The notes beneath the pieces are model-generated. The model was not told the origin of the DNA. It did not search any database and saw only the letters and a program-made list of their open reading frames with translations. A program made the position numbers and the translations under genes. From positions 1 through 51,343 of the forward strand of contig JAGBLH010000286.1 in assembly GCA_017635515.1 (NCBI GenBank): DNA of 51,343 nucleotides. The letters are read 5' to 3'. The stretch's first letter is position 1. The number at the start of each line of letters is the position of its first letter. The DNA is from Selenomonas sp. Its GTDB lineage: Bacteria; Bacillota; Negativicutes; Selenomonadales; Selenomonadaceae. Below, in pieces: positions 24,806-50,266 of the stretch.

Positions 24806-24843
24806 ATTTGGTGCATGAGACAACAAAATACAATATTCAAGGT

Positions 24844-24870: not shown

Positions 24871-24899
24871 ATTTTTTTATTTGGCTGAAAATCTGTAAG

Positions 24900-24927
24900 T
24901 TAGAACTCTTTTCGCAAGGGATAATAT
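24900..24927 (+). promoter_or_regulatory. probable promoter of the primase operon
   Basis: -35 TTAGAA (24900-24905), 16-nt spacer, -10 TAATAT (24922-24927). The -35 box is a weaker match than in the dam copy. Confidence 0.5.
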
Positions 24928-24968
24928 ATATAGAAGTCTTGCAGGTGCGCGGAACGGAGGAATTTGGC

Positions 24969-26642
24969 TTGAGATTTTTGGATGAAGACGAGAAGCGGGA
25001 GCTTCGGAGCCATCTGAAGGAGTATCTGGTGGAAAGCGGCCTTGCTACGGTGGAGCAAATAAGCCGTGGGCAGAATTTCAGCTGCCCAGGGCTTGACCAC
25101 AATGATGATTCTCCTTCGGCCCACTACTATGATGACCCGAAGTGCCCGCATGTGTACTGCTTCGGCTGCGGGGATTCCTGGGAACTGTTCAAGCTCATTG
25201 GCGAGAGGGAGGGGAAGTTCTCTTTCGAGGAGCAGGTGGAGAGGGCCAGGGAACTTTATGGCAGGGAGAGGTCGGACAACAGGCCCATCCCTGTGGTGAA
25301 GCTCCAGCAGACGGTGGAAAATGGGCCTGTCACAGAAGAGGAGAAAGAGAAGCTCCGTGAGTTCGTCAAGGAGAGCCAGAAGCATCTGGAGGAAACGGAT
25401 TATTTCCTTCGCCGGGGCTTTTCCCTGGAGTTTGCCAGGGAGCAGGGGGTGGGGTACAGCCCTGAACGCCACCGCCTTATCGTCCCTACTGATGAGGGGT
25501 ATGTGGCAAGGACGGTGCTTCCTTATGACAATATCCCACGATATCTGAATTCCAAAGGAGCGAATGTGTCGCTGGCTGGCAAGGCAGCCCTTGATCAGGA
25601 TAAGCCGGTTTTCGTGGTGGAAGGCATCTTTGATGCCCTGGCGATAAGGCAAGCGGGGTATGAGGCAATCTCTCTCAACAGCACAAGCAATGCCAAGCTC
25701 TTGCTGGATGCTGTTGAGAAGTCTGAGGCCAAGCCTGAGCTTGTCATTGCTCTTGACAACGACAAGACGGGAAGAAAGACCGCTATGGAGCTGAAAGCCC
25801 GGCTTGATGAGATGCTGGGTGTGAAGTCCAGGCTGGTGCTGGACAGCTGGGGGGAGTTCAAGGATGCAGGGGAGTGGCTGGAAAAGGCGGGGAATGATGC
25901 CTTGAAAGAGAGGCTGGGCGTGGTGATGGCAATGGATTCTGACAGGCTGGAAAGCCTTCAGGATGAGGAAACGTATGCCATGATGTACCATCGCCTCCGG
26001 GAGAACAAGCCAGCCCATGCCACGGATGACCTGCTTGAGTATTGGGAGAGTGTCATTCATGAAATAAAGGAGACTGTCATCCAGCTCCATAAGGCTGAAA
26101 AGCAGTGCAAGGTGCTGAAGCTCTGGAGCACGGCTATCGAGAAGGCGGCAGAGGAGTTCAGCATCGAGCCTGAGAAGGTGGAACCGCTCAGGCAGGAACT
26201 CAGCAAGATTGAGGCCAAGGCCCAGCAGGACCTGAAGGACTGGGAGTATATCATGAAGTCCATGGAAAAGCTGGATTTCTTCTCGAACAATCTGATTGAT
26301 TCCATTGTGGAGATAAGGGAGAGAAATCCGCTCTTCAAGCTGCCTGAGGTCCAGCATGCCATGGAGGCCGAGGAAGCCCTGAGGGAACCGCCGAAGCAGA
26401 AGCCTGAGGTGATCTATTATGCCTTGCTTCGTGAGGCTGCCGAGAATAACACGGGCATCCTTGATTATGAGGCAGACAGGCTAATTGCTGAAAGGCTGAA
26501 GGACAGCAGAAAGAATGAGAAGGAGATCGCCATGTGCCTTTCCTTCTCTCCGGCTCTCAGGAATGTCCCAGAAGGCAAGAGGAAGGCTACAGCGGAGACT
26601 GTGCTGAAGGACATTGAAAGCAAGCGTGGCGCAGGAAGGTGA
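24969..26642 (+). CDS. conjugative-element DNA primase (CHC2 zinc finger plus TOPRIM)
   Basis: 557 residues from the TTG at 24969 (CGGAGG 8 bases upstream). The CHC2-type zinc finger uses C39 in NFSCPGLDH, H44, and C64/C67 in VYCFGCGDSWELFKLIG. The TOPRIM domain shows FVVEGIFDALAIRQ (catalytic Glu near residue 216) and VIALDNDKTGRKTA (D-x-D near 263). The C-terminal 250 residues are a charged coiled-coil region without known motifs. The protein should make RNA primers on the transferred single strand or for vegetative replication. It leads an operon running through 39.3 kb with the seven tail-sharing paralogs. Its first 40 codons recur at 20102. Confidence 0.9.
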   Translation: MRFLDEDEKRELRSHLKEYLVESGLATVEQISRGQNFSCPGLDHNDDSPSAHYYDDPKCPHVYCFGCGDSWELFKLIGEREGKFSFEEQVERARELYGRERSDNRPIPVVKLQQTVENGPVTEEEKEKLREFVKESQKHLEETDYFLRRGFSLEFAREQGVGYSPERHRLIVPTDEGYVARTVLPYDNIPRYLNSKGANVSLAGKAALDQDKPVFVVEGIFDALAIRQAGYEAISLNSTSNAKLLLDAVEKSEAKPELVIALDNDKTGRKTAMELKARLDEMLGVKSRLVLDSWGEFKDAGEWLEKAGNDALKERLGVVMAMDSDRLESLQDEETYAMMYHRLRENKPAHATDDLLEYWESVIHEIKETVIQLHKAEKQCKVLKLWSTAIEKAAEEFSIEPEKVEPLRQELSKIEAKAQQDLKDWEYIMKSMEKLDFFSNNLIDSIVEIRERNPLFKLPEVQHAMEAEEALREPPKQKPEVIYYALLREAAENNTGILDYEADRLIAERLKDSRKNEKEIAMCLSFSPALRNVPEGKRKATAETVLKDIESKRGAGR

Positions 26643-27812: not shown

Positions 27813-27829
27813 GGGGGATGTTTGACATC

Positions 27830-29086
27830 ATGGCAGAGGATAAAAGCATTTTATATTTTGATGTGCGTTTTTCGGAGAATGGCGAGTACAACCAGGATGA
27901 CCATACTGTGATGATAAAGGCACTGCGTGAACCCAAGTCTCTTGAGGAGTTGAATGAGTTCCTGAAGGATGTGGTCGAAGAGCATGGCAAGGTCATTGAG
28001 TATGACAGGTTATCTGAAGATGAGGGAATAAATTGGTTTGATACTTTTGGTGATGAGAACAGGCCTGTGCTTGGCGAGGTGAAGGTGCTGTATGATGAAA
28101 AAAGTGTACTGGATGATGGCACGGAGATTTTGAGTGTGTCTCAGCCATTCCCAGATGATGAGGAATATACTGCTATACATTATGTGCAGGGGAATCTTAC
28201 TGGGGTTCAACTGGTTCAGAATTGTGTAGTGGCTGATTTTGAACTTGAGGTGGCTCGTTTTGATGAAGTGCCGGAGATTCCTGTATATAGAGAATATGGC
28301 GCGGCTATGGTTCCTGTAACTTCTCTGAACACGGTGGGGCATTCTGAAAAGGAAGCCGTGCTGGAGTTAATCAACCGAGGTGAATTGGAGCTTCATGATT
28401 TGAGTGAGCTTCCTAATGTCAAGGATTTGGGACCAGTGCTTTCCGATTTGTATCATGAGGCCCTATCCACTACTCCTGAGATGGTTTTTCTTGATGAAGA
28501 TAATAAGGATTCAATCCTCAAAATGGGGTATGAAAAATCTGTTCAGGAGATATGTGAGAGCATAGAGGCTGACTTGGAAAAGTTTCCAGCATTGAGGAAA
28601 GTCATTGAAGTTGATCCCGATGGGCCGGAGGAAGGGGAGCCGATTGTTACTTGCTATATGGATTTCCCTTGTATGGTAGTCGAGGACTATGACAGGGAGA
28701 AATACAGGAGCGCAGTTCCTTTTATGCTTAATCAGGCCGGTGCAAAAATTTTGGAGTATGTGCAAGAGGCAGTGGATAAGGAACTGGGCGTGGTAGAGGC
28801 TTGCAAGGAGCATAACATAACTTATGCGCCCCGTAAACTGGAAGAAGCACTGTATGCTTTTGGGCATTTTTCCAGCAAACAAGTGCTGAAGGTTATTGAT
28901 AAGGAAGCTCATAGGCCTGACAAACGGAAGGATGCTGCTGTCCTGGACGGGGCGTTGAAGTACGAATCCCAGCATGACAGGAAGGAAGCTTTGAAGCAGG
29001 TGAAGAGCTGGATGAAGAAGCCTTGCGACAAGGTAGCCAAAGAGATTGAGAAGCTTCAGGAGAAGAACAGGCAGCAGGGCAGGTAA
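27830..29086 (+). CDS. tail-sharing paralog 1, 418 aa
   Basis: First of seven genes that share a C-terminal block. I favour the ATG at 27830 (MAEDKSILYFDVRF); an ATG at 27818 abuts the GGGGG site. A unique N-terminus (about 1-110) is followed by the family core: TAIHYVQGNLTGVQL, then AVLELINRGELELHDLSELP, then SIEADLEKFPALRKVIEVDP and DFPCMVVEDYDREKYRS. The tail reads VLDGALKYESQHDRKEALKQ, then VKSWMKKPCDKVAKEIEK and LQEKNRQQGR. The body is acidic and the tail basic. No catalytic motif is visible. A cytosolic polyvalent or accessory protein of the conjugative element, or a substrate with a secretion tail, are both possible. Confidence 0.7.
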   Translation: MAEDKSILYFDVRFSENGEYNQDDHTVMIKALREPKSLEELNEFLKDVVEEHGKVIEYDRLSEDEGINWFDTFGDENRPVLGEVKVLYDEKSVLDDGTEILSVSQPFPDDEEYTAIHYVQGNLTGVQLVQNCVVADFELEVARFDEVPEIPVYREYGAAMVPVTSLNTVGHSEKEAVLELINRGELELHDLSELPNVKDLGPVLSDLYHEALSTTPEMVFLDEDNKDSILKMGYEKSVQEICESIEADLEKFPALRKVIEVDPDGPEEGEPIVTCYMDFPCMVVEDYDREKYRSAVPFMLNQAGAKILEYVQEAVDKELGVVEACKEHNITYAPRKLEEALYAFGHFSSKQVLKVIDKEAHRPDKRKDAAVLDGALKYESQHDRKEALKQVKSWMKKPCDKVAKEIEKLQEKNRQQGR

Positions 29087-29105
29087 GAAAAGGAAGGAAT
29101 AATCT

Positions 29106-30380
29106 ATGGATAAGGATAAAGCAGTAGACCTCCTGATGGATGAGGTCAGCCTTTATGACAAAGAAAAGCACATCTTGTATGTCCCTGATGTTGCCAATGA
29201 GTGTCATTGCCATGGCATACAGGAGTTCCACATCAATCTGAGTGATGAAAGATTGGAGGAAGAAATCCAAAAGCATGGTGGCCTGACAGCGATGTGCCTT
29301 GGATGCATCCCGGCTCCGGGGGCAATGCAAGATTACAACGATGAGTACGGGTATTCCGTTCTGGTTGGTGAAGAGATAGATCCTAAGGCTTATGGCATAG
29401 ATGATGTAGATTCCTTGCAGATGACTGATTATCTGAATGATGTCAGGAATGCTTATGGGCGTTTTGTTGCGGATTTGGATTTGCAAAATCTCACTGTTGA
29501 CCCGATGGATTACAAGAATATCACTGGCAAAGAATGGATAGATGAAGAAGCCAGGGAACAGCCAGAGAACAGCATGACGGAAGAGCAGCTTCAGCATAAG
29601 CTGTATGATTTATACCAGCTGGACTGGATGATGTTCCGTGGGCATAGCCTCAGCGAGATGATCAAGGGGATGTCAGAGGTCGCTCGTGAATCGGGAGATG
29701 AATATATCACCACTTATGATGGGGAGACATATACAGGAGAAGCTCATCTCGAAGAAGATGCTGTCGATTGCATGTATGCCCAATGGGAGAAGGATAGCGG
29801 TTTCAAAGGCGAGATTTTTGCTTGCTTCGAGGAGTTTTGCGAAAATGAGTATCTGGATGCATCATATATGCATGAATTGATGAATTCACAGCCTATTGAG
29901 CTGACAGGTAAGCTCGAAGATCTTTATGATGAATTCATGATGGCTAGGGAAGAACGGGAGATGCAGGAGGAAAAGGACAGGTATTTCCCGCCTGATATCA
30001 TGGGCGAAGAGGTCTTCCAGTATATCAGTGATGTGCTGGAGAAGGAGAAGGAGGTCATCGGGTATCGGGCAGAGGCAGCAGATAGGTATGATGCCGAGGA
30101 TGATTATTCCCCAAGGACTCTTGAGGATGCAATAAAGACATTCACTCCTGTAACTGGGGCAGATATGCTGGAAGTTCTGAAGGATGAGTCCAAGATGGAC
30201 AATGAGAAGCAGAAGGCTCCCTTTGCCGATACGGTGCTTGACGGGGCCTTGAAGTATGATACGAAGCTTCACAGGAAAGAGGCCTACAACAAGGTCAAGG
30301 AATGGATGGGGAAGCCTTGCGACAAGGTTGCCAAGGAGATCGAGAAGCTCCAGGAGAAGAACAGGGCGCAGGGCAGGTAA
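29106..30380 (+). CDS. tail-sharing paralog 2, 424 aa
   Basis: Starts MDKDKAVDLLMDEVSLYDKE with AAGGAA upstream. The N-terminal 150 residues have a Cys/His cluster (VANECHCHGIQEFHIN, then AMCLGCIPAPGA) that could bind metal, and a VDPMDYKNITGKEW segment. The central part is acidic and helical. It lacks the clear beta core of its neighbours but ends with the same tail: VLDGALKYDTKLHRKEAYNK, then KVAKEIEKLQEKNRAQGR. So only the tail, not the body, is shared, which argues that the tail is a transferable module. Function unknown. Confidence 0.7.
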   Translation: MDKDKAVDLLMDEVSLYDKEKHILYVPDVANECHCHGIQEFHINLSDERLEEEIQKHGGLTAMCLGCIPAPGAMQDYNDEYGYSVLVGEEIDPKAYGIDDVDSLQMTDYLNDVRNAYGRFVADLDLQNLTVDPMDYKNITGKEWIDEEAREQPENSMTEEQLQHKLYDLYQLDWMMFRGHSLSEMIKGMSEVARESGDEYITTYDGETYTGEAHLEEDAVDCMYAQWEKDSGFKGEIFACFEEFCENEYLDASYMHELMNSQPIELTGKLEDLYDEFMMAREEREMQEEKDRYFPPDIMGEEVFQYISDVLEKEKEVIGYRAEAADRYDAEDDYSPRTLEDAIKTFTPVTGADMLEVLKDESKMDNEKQKAPFADTVLDGALKYDTKLHRKEAYNKVKEWMGKPCDKVAKEIEKLQEKNRAQGR

Positions 30381-30407
30381 GGGATTACAGATAGTTTGAG
30401 GAAGATA

Positions 30408-31253
30408 ATGATGGATGGAAAAATAATCAAACTTGAAGAAAACAAACTAAAGGCTAAATTAGATGATGTTAGGGGAAAAAGGGAAAAACTGGAGAAGAAA
30501 TTAGCCAGACTGAAGGCTGAAGAAAAAAGAAAAGAAATGAGGGAGCGTGTTGATAGGAGAAAAATCACTTATGCTTATGGTCAATGGGCATTAGATAATA
30601 TAGAGATGCCCATGGCTGTTCCTAATACTTTTGAAGAGGCCGTACTTGATATAAATGCATTATATGATTTCTTGGGTTGCCAAAGGGAGTCGGCTCCTGT
30701 ATTCAATGAAAAATATTTTAGGCCAGGTTATTCTATGGTGGTATTAGGGGCAGAAATAAAGCAGCAGGTGGAAAAACAGATTCTTTCCTGCCCTTATTGT
30801 TGTCCTAAAACCAAAACCGAGCTTCAAGCCAATATAAGCTTTCTGAAGGAGAAATATCCGTCACAAGCAAAGGAATATAATCTGAACGATTATGATTTTG
30901 ATTGTCTGATTCCAGACAGGATATATTCTCTCAGGGAAATGCATGAAATCGGATTCCCTTTTGATGGTTTTTCTGTTCCTGACAAGGAAATGGAGTTCAC
31001 TGGTGAACTTGTTGCCAGGATGTGGGCTGCCAGGCATCCTCAACTGATATGCTTTTTTGTTTCAGATGAGGGGAAAGGATATAGGCTCAATCTGTGGTGG
31101 AAAGGGAACGATAAGGATTATTGCCCTAGACATACTCCTATATGTTTCAAGACTGTCGAAACACAAACTGTATGGAAATGCACCGTAGGACTGACAAGAA
31201 ATGGGAAGGTAGTCTGGGATACAGCAGAAGCAATGGAGGGTTATTATGAGTAA
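30408..31253 (+). CDS. hypothetical protein with N-terminal coiled coil, 281 aa
   Basis: Start MMDGKIIKLEENKLKAKLDD at 30408, 6 bases after GAGG; TTG at 30396 is less likely. Residues 10-55 form a highly charged coiled coil. The middle has FLGCQRESAPVFNEKYFRPG and a CPYCCPKTKT knuckle. The C-terminus VETQTVWKCTVGLTRNGKVV is beta-rich. It has no shared tail, unlike the genes around it, and is more A+T-rich. It overlaps the next start by 8 bases. Family not recognised. Confidence 0.65.
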   Translation: MMDGKIIKLEENKLKAKLDDVRGKREKLEKKLARLKAEEKRKEMRERVDRRKITYAYGQWALDNIEMPMAVPNTFEEAVLDINALYDFLGCQRESAPVFNEKYFRPGYSMVVLGAEIKQQVEKQILSCPYCCPKTKTELQANISFLKEKYPSQAKEYNLNDYDFDCLIPDRIYSLREMHEIGFPFDGFSVPDKEMEFTGELVARMWAARHPQLICFFVSDEGKGYRLNLWWKGNDKDYCPRHTPICFKTVETQTVWKCTVGLTRNGKVVWDTAEAMEGYYE

Positions 31254-32925
31254 GCTTAACGAGGCTTCTTTGGCAGACTTGAGAAAAGTTCTGCAAGGTT
31301 ATGAGGAAAATGGACATTCGGCAAAATCTGGTGACTGGGAGATTGCCACTGGCGGGTATGATTTAAATTGGCAGCTTTACTATAAGGGAAACCCTGTGGT
31401 TGACTGCATTGGAAACTCCATCACTGGCAGCGGGGGGACTCTTGATCATGTCAATATGGATAGGGAAGACTTTCTGAAGGTTTCCAAGGTCATCAAGGAA
31501 GAGTATCCAGATGTTCTTACCAAGGCAGAAGAGAAAGCAGAGCTGACGGGGCTTGATTATAAGACTCTTTGGGAAGAGCTTGGTGATGTGCCCGTAGACG
31601 AAAATGAAAATATTGATGTTGACTGGAGGCAGTTCCCCAAGGGGACATTCAGGGAAGATATATGGCATTGGTTTGAGGAAGAGTATGGCATCAGCGTAGG
31701 TGAGCTGATGAACGGTGATGAAGCAACAAAAGAAGAAATGCTTCTGGAAGAGAAGGCTGCTGATGATGAATATGTTTTCTCAGCCACGAAGGAGGGGCTG
31801 GAGAAGATTTCCAGTTACATCAGCGAAATGGAGGCAAAGAGGAAGGAAATCCTTGATGCCGGGCTTGATACGGTGGAAGAGGTTGGTGCATTGCCTACGG
31901 CTGGGGATATCATCAATGATATCCAGTTTGCCTATGAGGAGGAGACAAAAGATTATTGCCATCATTGGGATGTGACGGACAATCATATAACAAAGAAGCC
32001 ATTACTACTGGAACTCAACAAGGATTTTGTGAAAACAAAGATCTTGGAGGTGAAAAGGAAGGGGCAGGAGCCTGATGCTGATGCCTGGGTGACTATCCAG
32101 CAGGGGAACAGGAAGGGCTATTTCATTACTTCTGTGGGCGAATTGGACAGGAGAAAGCACCAGATGGAAAAGCTTGAGGATAGATATGGCCCAGGTGCTT
32201 TTACTGCCGACACAACGGATGAGGCATGCGCAAAGGATCTGATTGCATTGGGGGAAATTCTGGATGTTCCTAATCTCAGGGAGCTTCCCCTGATTGATGA
32301 CCAGTCCCATGCCTTGCAGACTGTGTTCAGGATGTCCCGCCAGAATGATGACGGTGGCTGTGTTTATATTGATAAGAACAATTACCAGGAACTGCTGGGG
32401 GATATCTTCAGGGATGGCATTGATCCCAATGCCTCACTGGAGTCGATGGTGCTTGATCTGCACAGCGATGTGTGCCATGTGCCTGGAATTGAGCTTGCCA
32501 TAAAGTTCCCTGAGCCGGAGGTGCTTGAGGCAGAAGAGGAGGCTTATGTCACTGTCTATCCTGAGTTCCCTGCTTGCTTTGCCAGTCGGGACAAGAGCCT
32601 CCGGCAGATGATCTATATTGTTGAGGATTCGCTTATGGAGATTGCTTCGCCTGACAGCAACAAGGAGGCGGGGCGCAAGACACTTGAAGAGGCAATGGAG
32701 AGGCGTGGCCTTGACAAGGATGACTTCATGGAGCTGATGCAGAATGCTGCCAAGTCAAAGGAGATTAGGTATGAAATACCTATTGGTGGGGCTGTGAAGA
32801 TAAACACGCAGAAGGAAAGAGTGGATGCTGTTTATACGTTCAGAAAGTGGATGAAGGAACCTGGGAAGAAGATTGCCAAGGAGATTGAGACCTTGAAAGC
32901 CAAGGGGAAGGGCGTGGGCAAATGA
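31246..32925 (+). CDS. tail-sharing paralog 3, 559 aa
   Basis: Starts MSKLNEASLADLRKVLQGYE. A unique N-terminal domain (about 1-165) includes TGLDYKTLWEELGDVP. Then comes a segment shared with paralog 4: FSATKEGLEKISSY, LLLELNKDFVKTKILEV, and WVTIQQGNRKGYFI, and later VPNLRELPLIDDQSHALQTV, ERRGLDKDDFMELMQNA. The tail is a divergent form: KINTQKERVDAVYTFRKWMK, then KKIAKEIETLKAKGKGVGK. It overlaps the previous gene by 8 bases and paralog 4 by 4, so it is one transcript. No catalytic residues can be picked out; the body is acidic. Confidence 0.7.
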   Translation: MSKLNEASLADLRKVLQGYEENGHSAKSGDWEIATGGYDLNWQLYYKGNPVVDCIGNSITGSGGTLDHVNMDREDFLKVSKVIKEEYPDVLTKAEEKAELTGLDYKTLWEELGDVPVDENENIDVDWRQFPKGTFREDIWHWFEEEYGISVGELMNGDEATKEEMLLEEKAADDEYVFSATKEGLEKISSYISEMEAKRKEILDAGLDTVEEVGALPTAGDIINDIQFAYEEETKDYCHHWDVTDNHITKKPLLLELNKDFVKTKILEVKRKGQEPDADAWVTIQQGNRKGYFITSVGELDRRKHQMEKLEDRYGPGAFTADTTDEACAKDLIALGEILDVPNLRELPLIDDQSHALQTVFRMSRQNDDGGCVYIDKNNYQELLGDIFRDGIDPNASLESMVLDLHSDVCHVPGIELAIKFPEPEVLEAEEEAYVTVYPEFPACFASRDKSLRQMIYIVEDSLMEIASPDSNKEAGRKTLEEAMERRGLDKDDFMELMQNAAKSKEIRYEIPIGGAVKINTQKERVDAVYTFRKWMKEPGKKIAKEIETLKAKGKGVGK

Positions 32926-34817
32926 ATCGTGAGGAATTTATTGAGAGCCTTCAGGACAAAGGCTTCTATGATGTGGACATTGATGCTGAGAAGGTCAATG
33001 ATTACTTCGAGCGGAAGGATTTTGAAGGCAGTGAGCCACGCATTGTCGGTAGCATGAGGTTGGAGGATATTGCTGTCCTGATCTGGCTGGACAGGGCAGA
33101 TGATGAAGTGACCCCAGGGATTCATCTGGACTTCCTGGAGCCTACGGAGGAGAGGAATGAATATGCGGAATACCTGCCTACAGACGAGAAGAAGGAAAAC
33201 CCGTTCTTTTACAATGGTTCCTATGAGTTCCGCAACATAGAGCAATGCAATGATTTTCAGAAGCTGGCAAGCTTTGTTGATGTGACGGCAAAAGCGTGGA
33301 TATTGGAAAGGGAAGAGTACAAGCTATGGGATCTCAAGTCTGACATCAGGGATGATGTCAACTTGCTCAGGAACAGGTGGAGCCAGGGGCATGAGTTTCC
33401 AAGCAGACCAACAGGAGGGGTTGGGCTGGTAGCATCTGACGATGGCAGACAGACATTTGGTGTCTTCCGTGATGAGCGACACACCGGAAAACTTTCCTTT
33501 GATATTGGCATCAAGAATGTTCGCAGGAATATCAATGGCAGGGAAAAGAATTGTGACTTGGTTTACACGAATGGCAAGCTGTTCATAAAAACTGCCCCTG
33601 ATGGGTATTCGCCTTTTACCGGCAGATCGGAGGGGGTGGAGATGTTCAAGCCACATGTCAGTGATATAAAGCTGTTCTGTGAAGAGTTCAAGGCTTTCCA
33701 TGAGGATGTTCAGAAGTTCAATGAGTCCATTGTTGCCAAGGAAAATATGAAGGACAATGGAATTGCACTGACCCTTACTGATGAGGGTCTGGCGAAGGTG
33801 TCTGATTATCACCATGGAGCTGAGGATGTTGTCAAGTTGCAGGTGTCTGCGGAAGATGTGGTCAAGCTCCTGCCTGATTTCTATGGGCCGAACAGGGCCA
33901 ATGACAATTTCCTGACTTTGAATTTTGATTCAGAGAATCCTCTAGTGCTTGAGTTCAAGAAGGATTTTGTGAAGACCAAGGTGCTGGATGTGTTCAAGGA
34001 GCCGAGCTGGGTTGATGAACCAGAAGTAAGGATATCTTACCAGCAGGGGAACAAGGTCGGCACTATGTATATACCAAAGCAGGAATATGAAAGTCGGGCA
34101 GGGTTCTATGAATCTGAAACCGTCCAGCAGACGGTCAGCAGCATGATTGCCCATGGCAAGCTGGCATATATCCCTGACCTCAAGGAGAAACCGCTTGTCG
34201 AAGACCAGTCCTTCATCTTGCAGGAAATATACAGAAGGTCGCTTTCTGACCCGCAGGGGATGGTGTTCATAGATGAGAAGAACTGCGGGGAGTTCCTTTC
34301 TGATGAGCAGAAGAGTGTGCTTGACCCTGAAGAGTATGCGTATGCTGTTAAGGAACGCTTGCGGCAAGAGAAATATGATAATCCGCTGCTTGCTGACGAA
34401 TTTCAGTTTCATGAGTTTGTTGATAATGAGCCTTTTGTGACCGTGTTCGCCCATTTTCCTGCAAAATTCACTCACGAGGCCATGGATGCCAAGGAGATGC
34501 TGCTGGCTGCTGATGCGGTGCTGATGGATCTTGCCAAAGCGGCTGACAGGGGCGAGAAGGCTGGCCTGACTTTTGAGAAGGCTCTGGAGAACCGGGGAAT
34601 CGACAAGGAAGACTTCATGGAGCAGGTCAAGAAGGCAGGGAAGTCAAGGGAGTTCATCGAGGGGGCAAGCATTGCTGGCGGGGCTATACGGCTTGAGAGC
34701 CAGCAGGACAGGAAAGAGGCTGCCAAGGTTCTCTCAGGCTGGATGAAGAAGCCTGGGGAGAAGATTGCCAAGGAGATTGAGAAGCTCCAGGAGAAGAACA
34801 GAGTGCAGGGCAGATAA
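32922..34817 (+). CDS. tail-sharing paralog 4, 631 aa
   Basis: Starts MNREEFIESLQDKGFYDVDI, coupled by ATGA to paralog 3. The N-terminal 270 residues include an ordered alpha/beta domain (DIAVLIWLDRADDEVTPGIH and LGLVASDDGRQTFGVFRDER-like strands). The second half parallels paralog 3: LTLTDEGLAKVSDY, LVLEFKKDFVKTKVLDV, VRISYQQGNKVGTMYI, LKEKPLVEDQSFILQEIYRR, NRGIDKEDFMEQVKKAGKS. The tail reads AIRLESQQDRKEAAKVLSGW then GEKIAKEIEKLQEKNRVQGR, almost identical to paralogs 1 and 2 at the end. The pair 3/4 looks like an older duplication. Confidence 0.7.
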   Translation: MNREEFIESLQDKGFYDVDIDAEKVNDYFERKDFEGSEPRIVGSMRLEDIAVLIWLDRADDEVTPGIHLDFLEPTEERNEYAEYLPTDEKKENPFFYNGSYEFRNIEQCNDFQKLASFVDVTAKAWILEREEYKLWDLKSDIRDDVNLLRNRWSQGHEFPSRPTGGVGLVASDDGRQTFGVFRDERHTGKLSFDIGIKNVRRNINGREKNCDLVYTNGKLFIKTAPDGYSPFTGRSEGVEMFKPHVSDIKLFCEEFKAFHEDVQKFNESIVAKENMKDNGIALTLTDEGLAKVSDYHHGAEDVVKLQVSAEDVVKLLPDFYGPNRANDNFLTLNFDSENPLVLEFKKDFVKTKVLDVFKEPSWVDEPEVRISYQQGNKVGTMYIPKQEYESRAGFYESETVQQTVSSMIAHGKLAYIPDLKEKPLVEDQSFILQEIYRRSLSDPQGMVFIDEKNCGEFLSDEQKSVLDPEEYAYAVKERLRQEKYDNPLLADEFQFHEFVDNEPFVTVFAHFPAKFTHEAMDAKEMLLAADAVLMDLAKAADRGEKAGLTFEKALENRGIDKEDFMEQVKKAGKSREFIEGASIAGGAIRLESQQDRKEAAKVLSGWMKKPGEKIAKEIEKLQEKNRVQGR

Positions 34818-34832
34818 ATGGAGGGTTATGGA

Positions 34833-36623
34833 ATGAAAAAGCTGATGGAGTTTGAAATCAAAGATGATGTCTATGAGGTATATGGCGATTATCAACCTGA
34901 TTGCAGCACAGTCTTTGAGCCTGATGTGATTGGTTCGGTGCTCATGAATGGAGACAAGATGCAGTCCTTTGGGAAGACATGGACGGATGTTGTTCTGGAT
35001 GAGAAGGATTTTCTGGGGATGGCCATTGCCGCCTATGTGAATGATGATGCCAATGTTCATTTCACTGAGGTGTGCGAGGAGATCGAATCCTTCAAGGATA
35101 ATGTGCAGACATATACGCATGAAATGAATGGCAAAAAGATCCCGAATACTGTAGTCACTCACATGGGGGATGCGCTGGATTTGGTGGCGCTCTCTGAGAC
35201 TGGGGGATATTATGCCAACGGCACGCTTTCTGTTGCAACGAGGACGGACGGCTCTATTGCTACGGATGTTGAGGCGTTTGTTGAGAATGCTCTGGAAGAG
35301 GATTATGAGCAGGGCAAGATGATTTATATGAGCAAGGAGGTGAAGGAGTATCTTCAGGAACTTGTGGGAGAGTATCATCAGGAATATGTGGGAGACAGGC
35401 AGGGTGAGTGGGACATGGAGCAGGTCATTGAGGGTCTTAAAGACATGCATATAAAATATGACCTGCTTCAATCGGAGCCGGAAATTGGCAATGAGGGAAA
35501 ACGGGCAGAGGCAATTGGCAAAGCTATAAAATGGCTTGAAAATCCTAAGGCAATGGCTTTTGTCCCTGAGAATGACTTCAATGCGGTGTATGATACGCTT
35601 AAAGTGATGAAGGCCGAAGTCGGTAAGAAGAGAGACAAGTATCTGAAGGTTGGCTATGAGGATGCTCAAATCATACAGGAATATTTACCGCTTGATTATG
35701 CGGTGAATAAGCTGGCGGGGAATTACCACTACTATCAAACGGAGATACTGGATTTAAAAACAAGTAAATATCCATCGGAGCCTGAATGTGGTGTTGTGCA
35801 TTTCCGGCAGGGAAATTTGTCCGGCTATGAACTGATACCTATGGAGATATTGGAAGGAGGCTATACAAAAGAGCATCTGAAAGATGAAGAGGCCGTAGCT
35901 AAATTGGTACAGACAGGCGAATTTGAACTGCCAGATCTTTACGCACTTCCGCATTACAGTGATATCAGCCCTGCTTTGCTGGCTCTATATGATGAAGTGA
36001 AAGAACTAAACCCTGCTGAATTTTTCTGCATTGAACAGGAACTGACTGATATTGCAAAAAGCAGCAAGTCACTAAAGGGACAATCAGCACAGGATATTAT
36101 CGCACAGATAGAAGCGGATATGTTATTATATCCGAATCTTAGAGAATCTATAGAAATAGATCCATATGATACAGAAACTTGCTGCGTAAATTTTCTTAAA
36201 GAATTCCGTACATGTATAGCAGATGACTATGATGGTGGGAGATATAAGAAGATGGCCCCCATTCATGGCGATGTTCCGGGAGAGAAAATTTTTGGGCAGA
36301 TCGAGAAGGCCCTCGATGTGGTGGCCGAGAGGGATACGCATACTATTCCCAATGGCGGGGAGGTTGACCGCACTCTCAAGGAGGCCCTGAGCGACTTCGA
36401 GAGCTTGTCCGGGCAGGAAGTCCTGGTGTCCCTGAAGCGTGAGGCTGAGGCTACGGATGTGCGGAAGGGCAGCACTGTCCTGCATGGAACTATGAAGTTC
36501 GAGACACAGAAGGACAGGAAGGATGCTTACAAATGGGCCAAGAAGTGGCTGAACAAGTCAGCCAAGGAGCTGGATTATGAGATCTACAAGATACAGGAGA
36601 AAGGAAAAGGACAGGGGAGATAA
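34833..36623 (+). CDS. tail-sharing paralog 5, 596 aa
   Basis: Start MKKLMEFEIKDDVYEVYGDY at 34833 with GGAGG 8 bases upstream; ATG 34818 has no good site. N-terminal domain 1-190 is unique. From about residue 200 it carries KYDLLQSEPEIGNEGKRAEA and NPKAMAFVPENDFNAVYDTL, shared almost word for word with paralog 7. The family core follows: YHYYQTEILDLKTSK, VVHFRQGNLSGYELIPMEIL, GEFELPDLYALPHYSDISPA, IIAQIEADMLLYPNLRESIE, FRTCIADDYDGGRYKKMAPI. The tail is VLHGTMKFETQKDRKDAYKW, AKKWLNKSAKELDYEIYK and IQEKGKGQGR. It is the most complete copy of the common architecture. Confidence 0.72.
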   Translation: MKKLMEFEIKDDVYEVYGDYQPDCSTVFEPDVIGSVLMNGDKMQSFGKTWTDVVLDEKDFLGMAIAAYVNDDANVHFTEVCEEIESFKDNVQTYTHEMNGKKIPNTVVTHMGDALDLVALSETGGYYANGTLSVATRTDGSIATDVEAFVENALEEDYEQGKMIYMSKEVKEYLQELVGEYHQEYVGDRQGEWDMEQVIEGLKDMHIKYDLLQSEPEIGNEGKRAEAIGKAIKWLENPKAMAFVPENDFNAVYDTLKVMKAEVGKKRDKYLKVGYEDAQIIQEYLPLDYAVNKLAGNYHYYQTEILDLKTSKYPSEPECGVVHFRQGNLSGYELIPMEILEGGYTKEHLKDEEAVAKLVQTGEFELPDLYALPHYSDISPALLALYDEVKELNPAEFFCIEQELTDIAKSSKSLKGQSAQDIIAQIEADMLLYPNLRESIEIDPYDTETCCVNFLKEFRTCIADDYDGGRYKKMAPIHGDVPGEKIFGQIEKALDVVAERDTHTIPNGGEVDRTLKEALSDFESLSGQEVLVSLKREAEATDVRKGSTVLHGTMKFETQKDRKDAYKWAKKWLNKSAKELDYEIYKIQEKGKGQGR

Positions 36624-36627
36624 GGAC

Positions 36628-37836
36628 ATGACCGAAGAGGAAAGCTTAGTAGAGGGACTGAGATCCATAAAGGATTATTCGGAAGTGGAACTCAAGGCAC
36701 AGGGGAAGGACAGCGGGCAAGCTGAGTTCTTCATTTCTGATGCGGAGACAATGGATAGAGCCATAACCCTGATAGAAAACCCCACTACAATGCGGTTCAT
36801 GGAAAAAGAAGAGGTAGATTCCTTGCTGAACAAGCTGAAGGACCTGGAAGAGTACAGCAAGGATATGGAACAGGGAAGCGAAGAGATGGGGATTGATGAT
36901 TCTGCCTGGGGAGAAGATATTGTCACGCTGGATAGTGCAAGAAATCTTATCTCGGTCAAATATCATGTCTATCAGACTGAAATACTTGATGTCCAGCGGT
37001 CAGAAGAGACTGGTGATGATTATGGCATGGTTCATTTCAGGCAAGGCCGCCTGTCTGGATATGGGCTGGTTCCTATGGAATTGCTGGATGAGGAATATGA
37101 GGGTAAGGAAACGGAAGATAAGGCGATTGTGCAGGCCCTCATAACGCAGGGGGAATTGGAACTTCCTGACCTCTGCAAACTGCCTGGTAATTGCGATATC
37201 AGTCCTACGCTGCTTAATTTTTATGATGATATAAGGCAGGAGCCTCCTGGCCGCATTGGTTATACTGAGGAGGATCTGAAAGCATTGGCAGATTCCGAGA
37301 GGTTCAAGTGGAAAGGCTATCAGGCTATCCGTGATGAAATAGAGGCTGATCTGATACTGTATCCGTCACTGAGATGTTCCATCAACCTTGATCCTGTGGA
37401 TGAAATCGGTGATCTGAAGTATGGAATCGAGTTCGAGAATGATTTCCGCACCTGCATTGCAGACGATTATCCCAGTGCGAGATATGTCAAGATGGCAGCA
37501 ATCTTCCACGATATGCCTGGAGAAGAAATCTTTGAGAAAATCGAGGAGTCCTTGAGGATTGTGGCTAAGATGGATACGCAGCGTACACTCAAGGAAGCTA
37601 TGACTCAGTTCGTGGCCCTTTCTGGGCAGGATGTCCTGGTGTCCTTGAAGCATGAGGCTGAGGCCAAGGATGTGCGGAAAGGCAGCACAGTCCTTTATGG
37701 GACTATGAAGTTCGAGACACAGAAGGACCGGCAGGAGGCATATAAGTGGGCGAAGAAGTGGCTGAACAAGCCTATAAAGGAGCTGTGTCATGAGATCAGC
37801 ATGACACAGGAGAAGGATAAGAGCCAGGGGAGGTAA
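36628..37836 (+). CDS. tail-sharing paralog 6, 402 aa
   Basis: Start MTEEESLVEGLRSIKDYSEV at 36628, 4 bases after the previous stop, with GGGGAGATAAGG upstream. Compared with paralog 5 it lacks the long N-terminal domain and begins near the KxYDLLQ region. Core: YHVYQTEILDVQRSEETGDD, MVHFRQGRLSGYGLVPMELL, GELELPDLCKLPGNCDISPT, IRDEIEADLILYPSLRCSIN, FRTCIADDYPSARYVKMAAI. Tail: VLYGTMKFETQKDRQEAYKW, then LNKPIKELCHEISMTQEKDK and SQGR. It is very close to paralog 5 in the last 110 residues, a sign of recent tandem duplication. Confidence 0.72.
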   Translation: MTEEESLVEGLRSIKDYSEVELKAQGKDSGQAEFFISDAETMDRAITLIENPTTMRFMEKEEVDSLLNKLKDLEEYSKDMEQGSEEMGIDDSAWGEDIVTLDSARNLISVKYHVYQTEILDVQRSEETGDDYGMVHFRQGRLSGYGLVPMELLDEEYEGKETEDKAIVQALITQGELELPDLCKLPGNCDISPTLLNFYDDIRQEPPGRIGYTEEDLKALADSERFKWKGYQAIRDEIEADLILYPSLRCSINLDPVDEIGDLKYGIEFENDFRTCIADDYPSARYVKMAAIFHDMPGEEIFEKIEESLRIVAKMDTQRTLKEAMTQFVALSGQDVLVSLKHEAEAKDVRKGSTVLYGTMKFETQKDRQEAYKWAKKWLNKPIKELCHEISMTQEKDKSQGR

Positions 37837-37843
37837 ATAAGGA

Positions 37844-39292
37844 ATGACACCTTTGAAGGTAACACAGCTCAATAGGGATATGCTGGACGAATTAAAAGCC
37901 CGCTACCTATCAGTGACGGTAGAAAGAGAAGAACACCGCAGTGTGTCCGAAAGAGAACTTCAAGATGCAGACGAACTGGTATCAGATGAAACCATCTTTG
38001 CAAAGTATGCCAATGCCGAATTCACTGTAGATAACTTCATATGCACAGCAAGGAGATATGACATACAGGATGAAATTGAGCGCAAAGAAACCATTAAGGG
38101 ACTTAAAGAAATGAAGGTAAAATATGACCTGCTTCAATCGGAGCCGGAAATTGGTAATGAGGGGGAGAGAGCAGAGGCAATTGGCAAAGCTATAGAATGG
38201 TTTGAAAATCCTAAATCAATGGCTTCTATCCCTGAGTATAGATTCAATGAAGTGTATGATACGCTTAAAATGATGAAGGACGAAGCGGGTGAGAAGAGAG
38301 ACAGATATTTGAAGGTTGGCTATATGGATGCTCCAATCATGGATGAGTATTTTCCGCTTAATTGTGCAGTGGATAAACTGCCAGGAGATTACCATTATCA
38401 TCAGACTGTGATACAAGATGTGCTGTATCCTGATGACGATGATGAATATATGGCTGCTATTTCTTATCGGCAGGGCAACATACAAGGAAGTCAGCTCATA
38501 GAGAAGGACAGTCTTTCTTATTACAGGAAAGAAGAATTCGGATATGAGATGAGTAACAAGGACATTATTAGCGAATTATTAAGGCGTGAAGATTTGGAGC
38601 TGACAGACCTTAGTCTCTTGCCTCATTACAGTGAAGTCAGCCCGGCTATGTTGAAGTTTTATGATGATATAAGAGACAAGGAGCCTATGGAGACGTTCTA
38701 TACCGAGGATGAGGTGCGGAAGCTCTGCTGCAGTGAGGATGGCGTTCACAAGTCTCCGAAGGATGTTTGTGAAGAGCTGAAAGCAGATATTGAGCTTTAT
38801 CCATTTATCAGAAACTCCATTGATATAGACCCTTTGAATAATGGTAGTTTTGATGTGAAGTTCCTTGATGATTTCCGTACATGCATCTCAGATAGCCTTG
38901 ACGGCAGCAGGAATGAGAAGATGAGTCCGATTCGAGGGGACATTCCTGGTGAGGAAATATTCGGGCAGATTGAAAATGCTTTGGATGCTGTGGCTGGGAG
39001 AGATTCGCATGGTATCCCTAGAGGCGGGGAAGCTGACCGTGAACTCAGAGAAGTCTTACGCAATTTCGAGAACTTTTCAGGGCAGGAAGCCCTAGTATCT
39101 CTGAAGCATGAGGCTGAGGCCAAGGATGTGCGGAAGGGCAGCACGGTTCTGCATGGGGCTTTGAAGTATGAGACACAGAAGGACAGAAAGGATGCTTACA
39201 AGTGGGTGAAGGATTGGATGGATGCATCGGTCAATGAGCTGAATCGTGAGCTTCACAAGATGCAGGAGAAAGAGAAAGGACAGGGGAGGTAG
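37844..39292 (+). CDS. tail-sharing paralog 7, 482 aa
   Basis: Starts MTPLKVTQLNRDMLDELKAR. The N-terminal 75 residues are unique. Then MKVKYDLLQSEPEIGNEGER, NPKSMASIPEYRFNEVYDTL and YLKVGYMDAPIMDEYFPLN match paralog 5. Core: YHYHQTVIQDVLYPDDDDEY, AISYRQGNIQGSQLIEKDSL, EDLELTDLSLLPHYSEVSPA, ELKADIELYPFIRNSIDIDP, FRTCISDSLDGSRNEKMSPI. Tail: VLHGALKYETQKDRKDAYKW, VKDWMDASVNELNREL, KMQEKEKGQGR. It is the last gene of the run; a pseudogene scrap and terminator follow. Confidence 0.72.
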   Translation: MTPLKVTQLNRDMLDELKARYLSVTVEREEHRSVSERELQDADELVSDETIFAKYANAEFTVDNFICTARRYDIQDEIERKETIKGLKEMKVKYDLLQSEPEIGNEGERAEAIGKAIEWFENPKSMASIPEYRFNEVYDTLKMMKDEAGEKRDRYLKVGYMDAPIMDEYFPLNCAVDKLPGDYHYHQTVIQDVLYPDDDDEYMAAISYRQGNIQGSQLIEKDSLSYYRKEEFGYEMSNKDIISELLRREDLELTDLSLLPHYSEVSPAMLKFYDDIRDKEPMETFYTEDEVRKLCCSEDGVHKSPKDVCEELKADIELYPFIRNSIDIDPLNNGSFDVKFLDDFRTCISDSLDGSRNEKMSPIRGDIPGEEIFGQIENALDAVAGRDSHGIPRGGEADRELREVLRNFENFSGQEALVSLKHEAEAKDVRKGSTVLHGALKYETQKDRKDAYKWVKDWMDASVNELNRELHKMQEKEKGQGR

Positions 39293-46791: not shown

Positions 46792-46816
46792 AAAGTGGTT
46801 CTATTAGAACCACTTT
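46792..46816. promoter_or_regulatory. palindromic site 3, upstream of the type IV secretion operon
   Basis: Perfect 25-bp palindrome with 12-bp arms AAAGTGGTTCTA and TAGAACCACTTT around one T. No T-run follows, which favours a protein-binding operator here. Downstream sequence GCT-N6-CTGTAA-x-TTGG is shared with the sites at 19976 and 24844. Confidence 0.8.
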
Positions 46817-46915
46817 CATTATGTAAATTTGCTATATTTCTGTAATTTGGTTGAGGTTCTATGTGATACAACTAAGGTAAGGACTTCAGAATGTTTTTTA
46901 CAGGGAGTGATTTTC

Positions 46916-47698
46916 ATGGCAATGGAAAAGTTTTCGAAGAAGGCCGTAGCCATAGGCGTGGGGGCTATCATGGGGGTCAGCGCAAGCCTCCTGGCTATGA
47001 TTCCCAGCTCCAGGGGAACTGAGGCGGCTATTGCGGTCTTTGACGAAAAGAATATTGAGGAAGCGGTAAAGACCGCCATTCAGACGGCGAATATCTTGAC
47101 GGAGGCACAGAAGCAGTATGCTTTGATGTTGCTGAACATGAAGAAGCTGGATGTCGGCACACTTATGCAATTTCTAGGGACTCAGGATAAGAATATCGCT
47201 GAACTCAACAAGCAGGTAGAGAACTACAGGGGGGTCTTGAACAAGAACAAGACTCTTGAGAATATCTGGAAGGATACTGTGGGTGATTTTGAGTCGGTGC
47301 TGAATGGCAATCTCACTGTGTATGATATGTACAAGATAACCAAGAACCGGGCGAAACAGGCTCAGGATACGGTAAATGATGCCAACATCATCGTCATGAA
47401 CGCTCAGAAGACGAACAAAGAGGTGCTGGAACAAAGCAAGAAGATCATGGAGAAGTCGAATGAGGCTGAGGGTGAACTTCAAGCCCAGCAAGCCAATACG
47501 GCGGCGATTACGAATGAGACTAATGCCATAACGCAGGAAATCAACTTGCTGACGGGGCTTGTTTCGTATCAGCAGATGGATAGGCAGGATAAGGAAGCTG
47601 ACAGGGCTTATAGCCAAGCGGTTGTAACTAAATCTAATAATATCGGGCACAAAAATCTTGCAAGTTACGATGGCTCAAAAAATCTGTACAGGGAGTAA
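46916..47698 (+). CDS. VirB5/TrbJ-like conjugation protein
   Basis: Start MAMEKFSKKAVAIGVGAIMG at 46916 behind GGGAGTGA; 260 residues. The N-terminus is a signal peptide (basic residues, then VAIGVGAIMGVSASLLAMI), with the mature part starting near AIAVFDEKNIEEAVKTAIQT. TrbJ/VirB5 proteins typically begin [AG]-[IV]-x-V-x-D-x-x-N-[LI] followed by long helices, as here (ILTEAQKQYALMLLNMKKLD, then a coiled coil to about residue 240). Such proteins form the minor tip or periplasmic part of the conjugative pilus or channel. It lies 3 bases upstream of the VirB6-like gene, and behind palindromic site 3. Confidence 0.78.
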   Translation: MAMEKFSKKAVAIGVGAIMGVSASLLAMIPSSRGTEAAIAVFDEKNIEEAVKTAIQTANILTEAQKQYALMLLNMKKLDVGTLMQFLGTQDKNIAELNKQVENYRGVLNKNKTLENIWKDTVGDFESVLNGNLTVYDMYKITKNRAKQAQDTVNDANIIVMNAQKTNKEVLEQSKKIMEKSNEAEGELQAQQANTAAITNETNAITQEINLLTGLVSYQQMDRQDKEADRAYSQAVVTKSNNIGHKNLASYDGSKNLYRE

Positions 47699-47701: not shown

Positions 47702-50266
47702 ATGCGTAAAAAACATATTTACACAGGATTGCTTCTGGGTGTCATAATTATATTGCTTTTGACTTCGGATATTGCTTTGGCTGCTGACTCTATCGGGGAT
47801 ATTCTTGGTGGTGGCAGTAAATCTATGACTGCCAGTGATTTTTCCGATAAGGTAATCGACTTTGGCAAAGATATCAATGAGGGCACATCATTCAGAACGG
47901 AGTTCCAGAAAATATTCCTGGGCATGAACACTGTCTTCAGGTCTATCATCACAATCCTTACGGTGGCTGCCGGCGCTATGATTGCCTTTGGCATTGAGGA
48001 TGGCAAGAAGACGGTATGGCAGTTCATGCTGGGGATAGGGCTTGCTTATAATTTCGGGGTGTTTTTGTTTGAGGTGTTTGGCAATACCGGGATTCTTATG
48101 TCCGTGGACGATATTGCAGCAGCTCACAAAGGAACAAGTGCAGCAGCTGAAATACTGAAGAATTCAAAAGAAAACGGGAATGATGATATCCTGAGCGAGA
48201 TCATGGCGGTTTATTCAGGAACCATCATAAACAATGGCATGCCGGTGCTCCAAGCCATAGCGCTCAGGATGACTATTGCCTTGGCTGCCCTTGAGGGTGG
48301 CTATAAGATTGCTATGGATCTGTATAGTGGCGATAAGATCAAATTCATGCTGACGTATGTTTTCAAGGCTGGCTTTTTCTGCTTCCTTATCATGGAGTGG
48401 CTGAATATAGGTCAAGCGTTATCAGGATTCTTCCAGGCTGCGGGGTTCATGGCGGCGGGGGAAACTGGCTTCTCTACAGCTGATCCGACATCGGTGGATG
48501 CTGACAAGACTTTCAGGCCTGACTCCATCTGGCATAATGCCTGGGCTTTCCTGGAACTTTGTTTGAATGGCAAAGGAGCAAGTGATGAAGCAAAAAATGT
48601 AGGCTTCGGCTTTGTAGATGCTGTTTCAGATAAAGGTGTTTTCAGCGTAGCTGGTAATCTGCTAAGTGGTGCTATTCTTGAACCTATTGTGGAAATCATA
48701 GCAACACTTGTCATTGTAGGGATCATGCTCTTTATTGCTGTGGAAATGTTCGTGGCCCGCATTGAGTTCTACACCATGCTTATGCTCAGTGTGGTTTTCT
48801 TGCCCTTTGGTGTCACGGAAAGGCTGGCCTTTTTGTCGAATTCGGCTATCAGCCTGATGTTCAACTCCGGGGCGAAGATGATGGTCATCTGTTTCCTACA
48901 GGTGATGATTGCTAAGATATTCTCAGCGTATTTCATAAAGCTGGAAGTGAATCCGTATGAGAATTTCTCAATACTATGCCAGATTATTATTATGTGTGCG
49001 TTCTTTGCGTACCTCACGAAGAAGATACCTGATCTGGTGTCCTCGTTCCTGAACGGTAGCCCGGCACTGAGCGGTGGCGGGATGATTAGCCAGGCTTCGG
49101 GGATGGCTAGACAGGCTGCTTCGGTGGCTGGTGCTGTGGCTACTGGCGGGGCTGCTTTGGGAGGGATGGTTGCTGGAGCTGGTGTCGCATCCCAGGCTGC
49201 CAAGGAGGCTTACGCTGCAAGCGGCAAAGCACCTACCATGATGAGCAGCCTGAAGAATTCTACTGCGGGAATGATGGCTAGAGGCTTGGCTATGAATGCA
49301 TTAGGCAAGAATCCTATCACTCAGGCAGCATCCCGTGGGGCCAGAATGATGATTGGGGATGATGGGAAGCTCCTGAACCCAGATACCAATTTCATGGATG
49401 GGGTACAGAGGCTGGCAGGGCTTGAGAAACGTGATAATGTTCATGCTCCACGGAAGGATTCCATCTTCTCAGATGCTGCTGATCCGTCTACAAAGAGGGA
49501 CGGTACGGGCAACGGCAATGATACACCGCCTGGTGGCCCTCCTGGTGGTGGCGGTTCTCCCAACAAGCCTACCATCAACCCGCCCAAGGGGTATCCCGGT
49601 GAAGATACAACAGCCAAACCTTCACAGGAGAAAGGTGATGGCGGTTCTGGTGGCAGAGGTATTGACGGCAAGGATGGCAAGGATGGGCAGTCAGCTCAGG
49701 TTGCAATGCCTACTCCTAATGGCATGAAAGAAAAAGAGACCATCAGAGAGAATACCAACAGGTCTGAGAGCCAGCATACAGAGCACAAGGATACCAAGGA
49801 GGTTCCTAGCCAGAATGCAGCTGAAAAAGCTGGTTCGGCTCAAGCATCTCAGATTATGCCTACGTCACAATCTGCCGCTCCTGCTGGTGGTGGAGCTGGC
49901 ACAGGCAATGCTGCTTCTCAACCTATGCCTGGTAAAGCTGAAGCATCTGGAACAGTGACTGCTGGCAACGGCAATAAAGCCTCGCAACAGGTCGGCGCTC
50001 AAATGCCACAGGCTAATCCTCAGGTGCAGAATGCTCAGGCATCGCAAAGCAATACCCAATCTGCCGCTCCTGCTGGTGGTGGAGTTGTCACAAGCAATGC
50101 TGCTCCACAGGTTGCTCCTGGGAAGGCTGAAGTTTCTGGTGCAAAGAATTCTACAGGCAATGCCTCGGTATATACGCCTATAGGTGGTGGTGCACCTAAT
50201 ACCGATTCCTCTGGAAATAAGTCAGGTAGCTCCATGAGCGATATGGGGAATTTTAAGAGGAAATGA
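47702..50266 (+). CDS. VirB6/TrbL-like type IV secretion membrane protein, 854 aa
   Basis: Signal-like N-terminus (HIYTGLLLGVIIILLLTSDI, then ALAADS), followed by a soluble stretch and several transmembrane helices: ITILTVAAGAMIAFGIEDG, FMLGIGLAYNFGVFLFEVFG, LVIVGIMLFIAVEMFVAR, FYTMLMLSVVFLPFGVTE and ICQIIIMCAFFAYL-type segments near residue 425. The sequence MLSVVFLPFGVTERLAFLSN is a hallmark of TrbL/VirB6 proteins, the polytopic inner-membrane core of the channel. From about residue 460 the protein becomes a soluble Gly/Ala/Pro/Gln-rich tail of nearly 400 residues with an internal repeat (49868-50141). This long tail is typical of plasmid TrbL forms. A terminator follows the stop. Confidence 0.88.
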   Translation: MRKKHIYTGLLLGVIIILLLTSDIALAADSIGDILGGGSKSMTASDFSDKVIDFGKDINEGTSFRTEFQKIFLGMNTVFRSIITILTVAAGAMIAFGIEDGKKTVWQFMLGIGLAYNFGVFLFEVFGNTGILMSVDDIAAAHKGTSAAAEILKNSKENGNDDILSEIMAVYSGTIINNGMPVLQAIALRMTIALAALEGGYKIAMDLYSGDKIKFMLTYVFKAGFFCFLIMEWLNIGQALSGFFQAAGFMAAGETGFSTADPTSVDADKTFRPDSIWHNAWAFLELCLNGKGASDEAKNVGFGFVDAVSDKGVFSVAGNLLSGAILEPIVEIIATLVIVGIMLFIAVEMFVARIEFYTMLMLSVVFLPFGVTERLAFLSNSAISLMFNSGAKMMVICFLQVMIAKIFSAYFIKLEVNPYENFSILCQIIIMCAFFAYLTKKIPDLVSSFLNGSPALSGGGMISQASGMARQAASVAGAVATGGAALGGMVAGAGVASQAAKEAYAASGKAPTMMSSLKNSTAGMMARGLAMNALGKNPITQAASRGARMMIGDDGKLLNPDTNFMDGVQRLAGLEKRDNVHAPRKDSIFSDAADPSTKRDGTGNGNDTPPGGPPGGGGSPNKPTINPPKGYPGEDTTAKPSQEKGDGGSGGRGIDGKDGKDGQSAQVAMPTPNGMKEKETIRENTNRSESQHTEHKDTKEVPSQNAAEKAGSAQASQIMPTSQSAAPAGGGAGTGNAASQPMPGKAEASGTVTAGNGNKASQQVGAQMPQANPQVQNAQASQSNTQSAAPAGGGVVTSNAAPQVAPGKAEVSGAKNSTGNASVYTPIGGGAPNTDSSGNKSGSSMSDMGNFKRK
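49868..50141 (+). repeat. internal duplication in the TrbL-like tail
   Basis: About 85 bases starting CAATCTGCCGCTCCTGCTGG at 49868 recur at 50057. Both encode QSAAPAGGG-x-x-x-x-NAA-x-Q-x-x-PGKAE-x-SG. Confidence 0.8.

Follow-up and report, generated by a model that had tools for sequence, protein, structure and literature searches.

Seven tandem paralogs with an orphan C-terminal domain, candidate type IV secretion cargo of a conjugative element in Selenomonas

How conjugation machines choose the proteins they inject is an open question, and the known signals vary by system. In the VirB/D4 system of Agrobacterium, the signal comprises several arginines, spaced apart, among the final ~20 residues. 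The arginine motif, the XVIPCD and the BID are C-terminal signals already known from type IV secretion systems (T4SSs) (PMC10025392). ParA, ParB, SSB and others are known to pass as proteins by conjugation of an F plasmid (PMC8406263), and Iyer et al. 2017 propose polyvalent proteins as T4SS cargo, delivered together with DNA (PMC5512222). Here we describe seven tandem paralogs, P1 to P7, from a 51,343-nt stretch of Selenomonas sp. DNA (assembly GCA_017635515.1, JAGBLH010000286.1), hereafter the window, which is the entire contig C247 of a 316-contig assembly. The paralogs share an orphan C-terminal domain and, with one exception, end in a small residue followed by arginine, and they are encoded beside T4SS genes. 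Taken as a lineage-specific expansion, they are most likely T4SS-delivered proteins combining this domain with a terminal-arginine label, an account that we hold tentatively, at somewhat less than an even chance.

The polyvalent proteins occur in the same setting, a T4SS element with ArdC, LPD1/LPD5 and SNF2-methylase neighbours. Like them, P1 to P7 are encoded with T4SS parts (TrbL and a VirB5-like protein in the window, the rest on linked contigs). Unlike them, they have no recognised enzymatic, LPD or multiple disparate domains, which are present in neighbouring genes of a linked contig (C216). The available sections of PMC5512222 describe no C-terminal label. The F plasmid “conjutome” is comparable in that maintenance proteins cross the conjugation channel, some with C-terminal signals; as far as the accessible text goes, these signals are diverse and no common terminal arginine is described (PMC8406263, PMC11288057). 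Several unrelated Agrobacterium VirB/D4 substrates also have a positively charged C-terminus (PMC10025392), whereas here a small residue precedes a single terminal arginine, and other arginines are often few (P1 ends KEIEKLQEKNRQQGR and P7 ends RELHKMQEKEKGQGR).

The XVIPCD of Xanthomonas-type killing T4SS effectors is likewise a ~120-residue C-terminal domain with a glutamine-containing tail, found on several T4SS-associated proteins (PMC10025392). Its size fits the present domain, which gave no Pfam match up to E = 10, which XVIPCD model Pfam holds being unverified. In contrast to the XVIPCD, the domain occurs here on one paralog family only, with P2 alone having an unrelated body, and not on varied effectors, and no toxin/immunity pairs were seen. 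The BID of the Bartonella Beps and some relaxases is helical and C-terminal as well, with a short positively charged end behind it (PMC10025392). The present domain had no Pfam match to it and is not on the relaxase of this element. BID, XVIPCD and TraI-signal structures were absent from the fold matches listed for P1 or the domain. In the open-licence papers searched, we found no single terminal arginine common to unrelated conjugation cargo.

Tandem paralogs and their C-terminal domain

Seven same-strand open reading frames (ORFs) at 27818-39292 (+) encode products of 419-631 aa with matching C-termini, according to the ORF list (Table 1). A first-pass annotation of the DNA had described seven paralogs sharing a 47-residue C-terminal block that ends in QGR. 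The paralogs and their common C-terminal block were recovered by profile search and BLASTP. A profile of the last ~114 residues, built from the seven copies themselves, matched all seven with E-values from 1e-37 to 6e-50 and had no further match in the genome. P1 and P2 aligned over their final 125 residues only, with 44% identity (E = 3.5e-26). The unit common to all seven thus comprises ~114-125 residues and not 47, and QGR ends six of the seven proteins, P3 ending in VGK. The reported charge difference was confirmed: the bodies are acidic, with net charges of -37 to -61, and the final 47 residues are basic, at +2 to +8.

The bodies had been described as partly unrelated. This applies to P2, whose body is unrelated to the rest, but P1, P3, P4, P5, P6 and P7 have a ~177-residue body domain in common. 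In the all-vs-all BLASTP, P5, P6 and P7 were 38-55% identical across ~380-420 residues, P1 was alignable to these three across ~325 residues, and P3 and P4 aligned over ~400 residues. In related elements of the family, relatives of the body domain are encoded directly downstream of an ArdC gene, which suggests a role in counter-defence or establishment. None of the seven proteins belonged to a Pfam or NCBIfam family above the cut-off, and scans with PHROGs and PADLOC gave nothing convincing (residues 108-146 of P3 match phrog_24588). Weak matches to AsnC, Clathrin and Csm3 were dropped as below the cut-off. We also dropped a reading as seven toxins plus immunity, as there were neither toxin domains nor paired small genes.

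In an AlphaFold2 model of the whole P1, based on the seven-row alignment, the N-terminus was poorly predicted and the helical C-terminus well predicted. The last 116 residues of P1, modelled alone, reached a mean predicted local distance difference test score (pLDDT) of 89 and a predicted template modelling score (pTM) of 0.79. The model has five helices and a short two-strand segment, and its confidence drops only at the last few residues. Because these residues are predicted to fold alone, the 47-residue block would be the second half of a separate, independently folding domain, followed by a loose end. In the models, the tail is thus a domain apart and not buried within the body.

The domain appears restricted to this cluster. 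Profile searches were positive in the own genome alone, with none of 379 other genomes of the class matched and a 189-genome set negative outside the own genome. It was not found in plasmid or phage sets, nor in IMG/VR viral or GTDB contigs, these being scans with short peptide patterns or single proteins, which distant relatives could escape. In all of these searches, the tail was never found on an element without a T4SS. Among the sequences of solved structures there was no convincing match, and fold searches with P1 and with the domain alone gave no usable match; low-Z matches to helical proteins were dropped. The tail is not the tag on otherwise different proteins that had been proposed: it belongs to a domain specific to this family and confined to its seven members, and beyond the family only the last two to three residues are shared.

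A restricted domain could also mean that the tail is simply a conserved part of a family grown by tandem duplication and gene conversion, with QGR inherited and without a role, and with the agreement with other cargo due to coincidence or composition. The confinement to this cluster in the sets searched and the 64-80% DNA identity among the tandem tail copies fit such a history. We consider it unlikely, as non-homologous neighbours on the same element, unmatched by the profile, end in QGR, KGR, TGR and AAR, and the machinery genes of the same elements contrast strongly with them.

Terminal arginine in cargo and machinery proteins

On C216, from the same genome as the window, six neighbouring genes end in QGR, TGR, AAR, QGR, KGR and YAR, among them genes for an ArdC-type protein and an LPD1/LPD5 polyvalent protein. 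The tail profile did not match these proteins, and when profiles of the tail domain and of one QGR-ending protein were compared, no similarity was detected. In a second genome of the genus (contig G001:C5), a similar row of arginine-ending proteins comprises a methylase-helicase, a 510-aa protein, an ArdC-zincin-YodL protein, a body-domain relative and a 437-aa protein; the primase likewise ends in arginine. That antirestriction proteins, methylase-helicases and primases of this element family have the same last residue as these paralogs lends support to the idea of protein cargo.

We grouped proteins across the family elements by homology into mutually non-homologous cargo classes (methylase-helicase, ArdC, LPD and Toprim primase) and thirteen machinery classes. 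The window and C216 were left out and fragments were scored as failures. A terminal arginine was present in 41 of 58 cargo-type proteins, compared with 10 of 169 machinery proteins (Fisher p = 4e-22, a value that overstates independence, as orthologues are related) and 16 of 202 chromosomal ORFs. Arginine-ending genes were also clustered, with 28 adjacent pairs against a shuffled mean of 17, a number reached in none of 2000 shuffles. The residue before the arginine was G, A, S, V, T or I in 45 of 50 cases. Methylase-helicase homologues with ~40-50% identity kept the terminal arginine while the preceding residues varied. The own-genome methylase-helicase, on C194, ends in arginine too, and it was located through a shared palindrome (see below) and not through the tail.

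The same split was present in a held-out plasmid of Selenomonas sp. oral taxon 920 (NZ_CP017043). Its methylase-helicase (EAASR) and ArdC-type relative (QAAAR) end in arginine, while its VirB2, VirB4/VirD4-like ATPases, VirB8, VirB9, VirB10, TrbB, TrbL, VirB5 and SLT do not. A terminal arginine might instead shield proteins from degradation at the C-terminus and so keep unfolded ones intact during passage or storage, without directing export. Its occurrence on large multidomain cargo proteins would fit; machinery and chromosomal proteins should need stability too, and we regard protection as a very improbable explanation.

The arginine could also be a by-product of DNA signals, such as the Shine-Dalgarno sequence of the next gene lying over AGG/AGA, or the context of the stop codon. 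AGA/AGG made up 70% of 46 terminal arginine codons and 27% of those inside the same genes, as expected from such an origin. The ribosome-site artefact is nevertheless unlikely, because the AGA/AGG share is similar in cargo and chromosomal terminal arginines (70% and 56%, the latter 9 of 16). In addition, CGN codons were used in 30% of the cargo cases, ribosome sites often lay clearly past the stop codon, and machinery genes of the same elements lack such an ending. Overall, we give DNA signals only a very small chance of being the cause.

Outside the Selenomonadaceae, a clostridial integrative and conjugative element (ICE) in Monoglobus had arginine at the end of ParA, ParB, SNF2, a Toprim protein, a DUF3846 protein, PcfB, the relaxase and four unknowns, and not at the end of VirD4, VirB4, a TrbL-like protein and PrgI. 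PcfB is a donor-side type of protein, and its ending raises another explanation: the C-terminal domain could serve assembly or docking in the donor, the paralogs being complexed with, for example, the relaxosome, primase or coupling protein and not exported, and the arginine marking cytosolic DNA-processing proteins. The predicted separate and helical nature of the domain and the position of the cluster just downstream of the primase gene are consistent with it. Donor docking alone leaves the same ending on polyvalent antirestriction proteins, which are expected to act in the recipient, unexplained, and we rate it as rather unlikely.

We infer from these sequence patterns that the terminal arginine may be a translocation signal and that P1 to P7 are probably exported, in agreement with the known delivery of plasmid-maintenance proteins through conjugation channels (PMC8406263, PMC11288057) and with the proposed delivery of polyvalent proteins (PMC5512222). 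On an element of this Selenomonadaceae-type, Gram-negative Firmicute, P1 to P7 would be delivered through its own T4SS, with the transferred DNA or independently of it. Each paralog would consist of a variable acidic body, the ~114-residue helical domain and a loose [small residue]-Arg-COOH end, and a VirD4-like coupling protein would read this terminal label as displayed by the domain. Unrelated cargo (DarB-like methylase-helicase, ArdC, LPD1/LPD5 protein, primase) would bear the same label without the domain. In the recipient, our guess is that P1 to P7 would act in establishment or counter-defence.

Several observations weigh against this export model. Foremost, only about 8 of 38 complete MobA/MobL relaxases end in arginine, and that of the own genome ends in KRLL; relaxases have their own conserved ends, and the canonical substrate mostly lacks the ending proposed for the cargo. 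The [small]-Arg-COOH ending is present in six of the seven paralogs, P3 having GK. It is missing from several ArdC-type proteins of the family, including some from elements of another T4SS type, and from most Proteobacterial ArdC/TraC1 relatives. Short body-domain relatives (~170 aa) end in IV or II. The cargo classes were defined after the terminal-arginine pattern had been noticed, and the 114-aa domain has no detectable relative or fold match.

Relaxases also showed an ending of their own: many of L122-L161 share a C-terminal W-x-[LM]-[ML]-S-E-x-[DE]-K-D-E ending in REL, DRY or GR, a candidate relaxase signal.

DUF3991 proteins sampled from across the phylum showed other endings common to neighbours, e.g., -GYER/-PER and -EMEL/-HEL, and element-specific C-terminal endings may be general. 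It is possible, if doubtful, that Bacillota conjugative elements mark their cargo with a C-terminal label read by the coupling protein, and that P1 to P7 are a new family joining this label to an orphan domain. The label would vary between elements: [small]-Arg for those of Selenomonadaceae, -[E/A/S/T/R]-R for a Tn1549-like clostridial ICE, and other endings, such as the acidic -EMEL, for further element families. If true, the final residues of proteins could reveal the cargo repertoire of an element. A terminal residue that splits probable cargo from machinery across a family would be a simple, testable rule, would point to many unknown delivered proteins, this seven-member family included, and would allow direct tests of whether gut and oral Firmicutes export counter-defence proteins.

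At four DUF3991 loci from other Bacillota (L230, L231, L241 and L249), these proteins and unrelated neighbours share acidic ends such as EEMEL, EWDHEL and EEWEL.

The conjugative element and other genes of the window

The first-pass annotation had placed a VirB5/VirB6 channel on the same element, and this was borne out. Besides the VirB5-like protein and TrbL of the window (Table 1), further T4SS genes were found on contigs that carry the same 25-bp near-perfect palindrome. This palindrome has 18 copies in the own genome, three in the window and five on C216, and is also on C232, C194, C268, C258, C253 and C106. Its reversed sequence, used as control, had zero copies in the own genome, and none of the other family elements tested carried the palindrome. 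It may serve as an operator, as a terminator or in maintenance.

On C268, homology to family elements identifies genes for a VirD4-like ATPase and for VirB2-, VirB4-, VirB8-, VirB9-, VirB10- and VirB11-like proteins. C216 contributes a second TrbL, a VirB5-like protein, a MobA/MobL relaxase and a topoisomerase-like protein, and the methylase-helicase of C194 has 2897 aa. In G001:C5, homologues of the SLT, VirB5-like, TrbL and Toprim primase proteins belong to a single cluster that also includes a second TrbL, a second VirB5-like protein and the large methylase-helicase. We infer that the palindrome-bearing contigs are pieces of one large conjugative element; C106 may be chromosomal. No overlapping ends were found between the window and C216, and their linkage therefore rests on the gene order of G001:C5 and on the palindrome.

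Two gene starts need care. P1 has two possible starts, 27818 and the in-frame ATG at 27830. P6 probably begins at 36628; its listed start overlaps P5.

Table 1 Features of the paralog cluster and the transfer system in the window.
Feature	Position	Strand	Description
P1	27818..29086	+	422 aa; body domain and C-terminal domain; ends QGR
~177-aa body domain of P1	28115..28690	+	present in P3-P7 as well; relatives in elements of the family
C-terminal ~114-aa domain of P1 (reference copy)	28736..29083	+	profile; AlphaFold2 model
Other C-terminal domain copies	30003-30377, 32605-32922, 34491-34814, 36276-36620, 37516-37833, 38945-39289	+	profile
P2	29106..30380	+	424 aa; unique body and C-terminal domain; ends QGR
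285-aa protein without tail	30396..31253	+	between P2 and P3; ends GYYE
P3	31246..32925	+	559 aa; body domain and C-terminal domain; ends VGK
P4	32922..34817	+	631 aa; body domain and C-terminal domain; ends QGR
P5	34818..36623	+	601 aa; body domain and C-terminal domain; ends QGR
P6	36577..37836	+	up to 419 aa; body domain and C-terminal domain; ends QGR
P7	37844..39292	+	482 aa; body domain and C-terminal domain; ends QGR
Lytic transglycosylase (SLT) of the transfer system	18277..18825	+	
Toprim primase-like protein	24939..26642	+	ends GAGR; grouped with the cargo class by its terminal arginine
VirB5-like protein	46829..47698	+	assigned by position beside TrbL and SLT in elements of the family; no Pfam match
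TrbL/VirB6 channel protein	47702..50266	+	
25-bp near-perfect palindrome AAAGTGGTTCTAWTAGAACCACTTT	46792..46816; also 19977-20001, 24845-24869		links contigs of the element

Upstream of the transglycosylase gene, at 15798-18254, the window encodes an 818-aa helical protein with repeated SP-x-A...Y-like units and no Pfam match. Its homologues L039, L054 and L055 lie beside or near the transglycosylase gene in T4SS elements of the family. Through a ~270-bp duplication (19957-20228 and 24825-25095), a DNA adenine methylase has acquired the primase N-terminus, and the D12 methylase and AbiEii-type genes between the two copies resemble an inserted defence cassette. The left end of the contig (1-6759, minus strand) has opposite GC skew and the look of a phage-type replication module, one of its genes being for a family A DNA polymerase. 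The stretch that separates the cluster from the VirB5-like gene (43238-46243) carries genes for a metallophosphoesterase, a nucleotidyltransferase and RlaP-type RNA repair, which may be cargo for the repair of nucleic acids or for defence.

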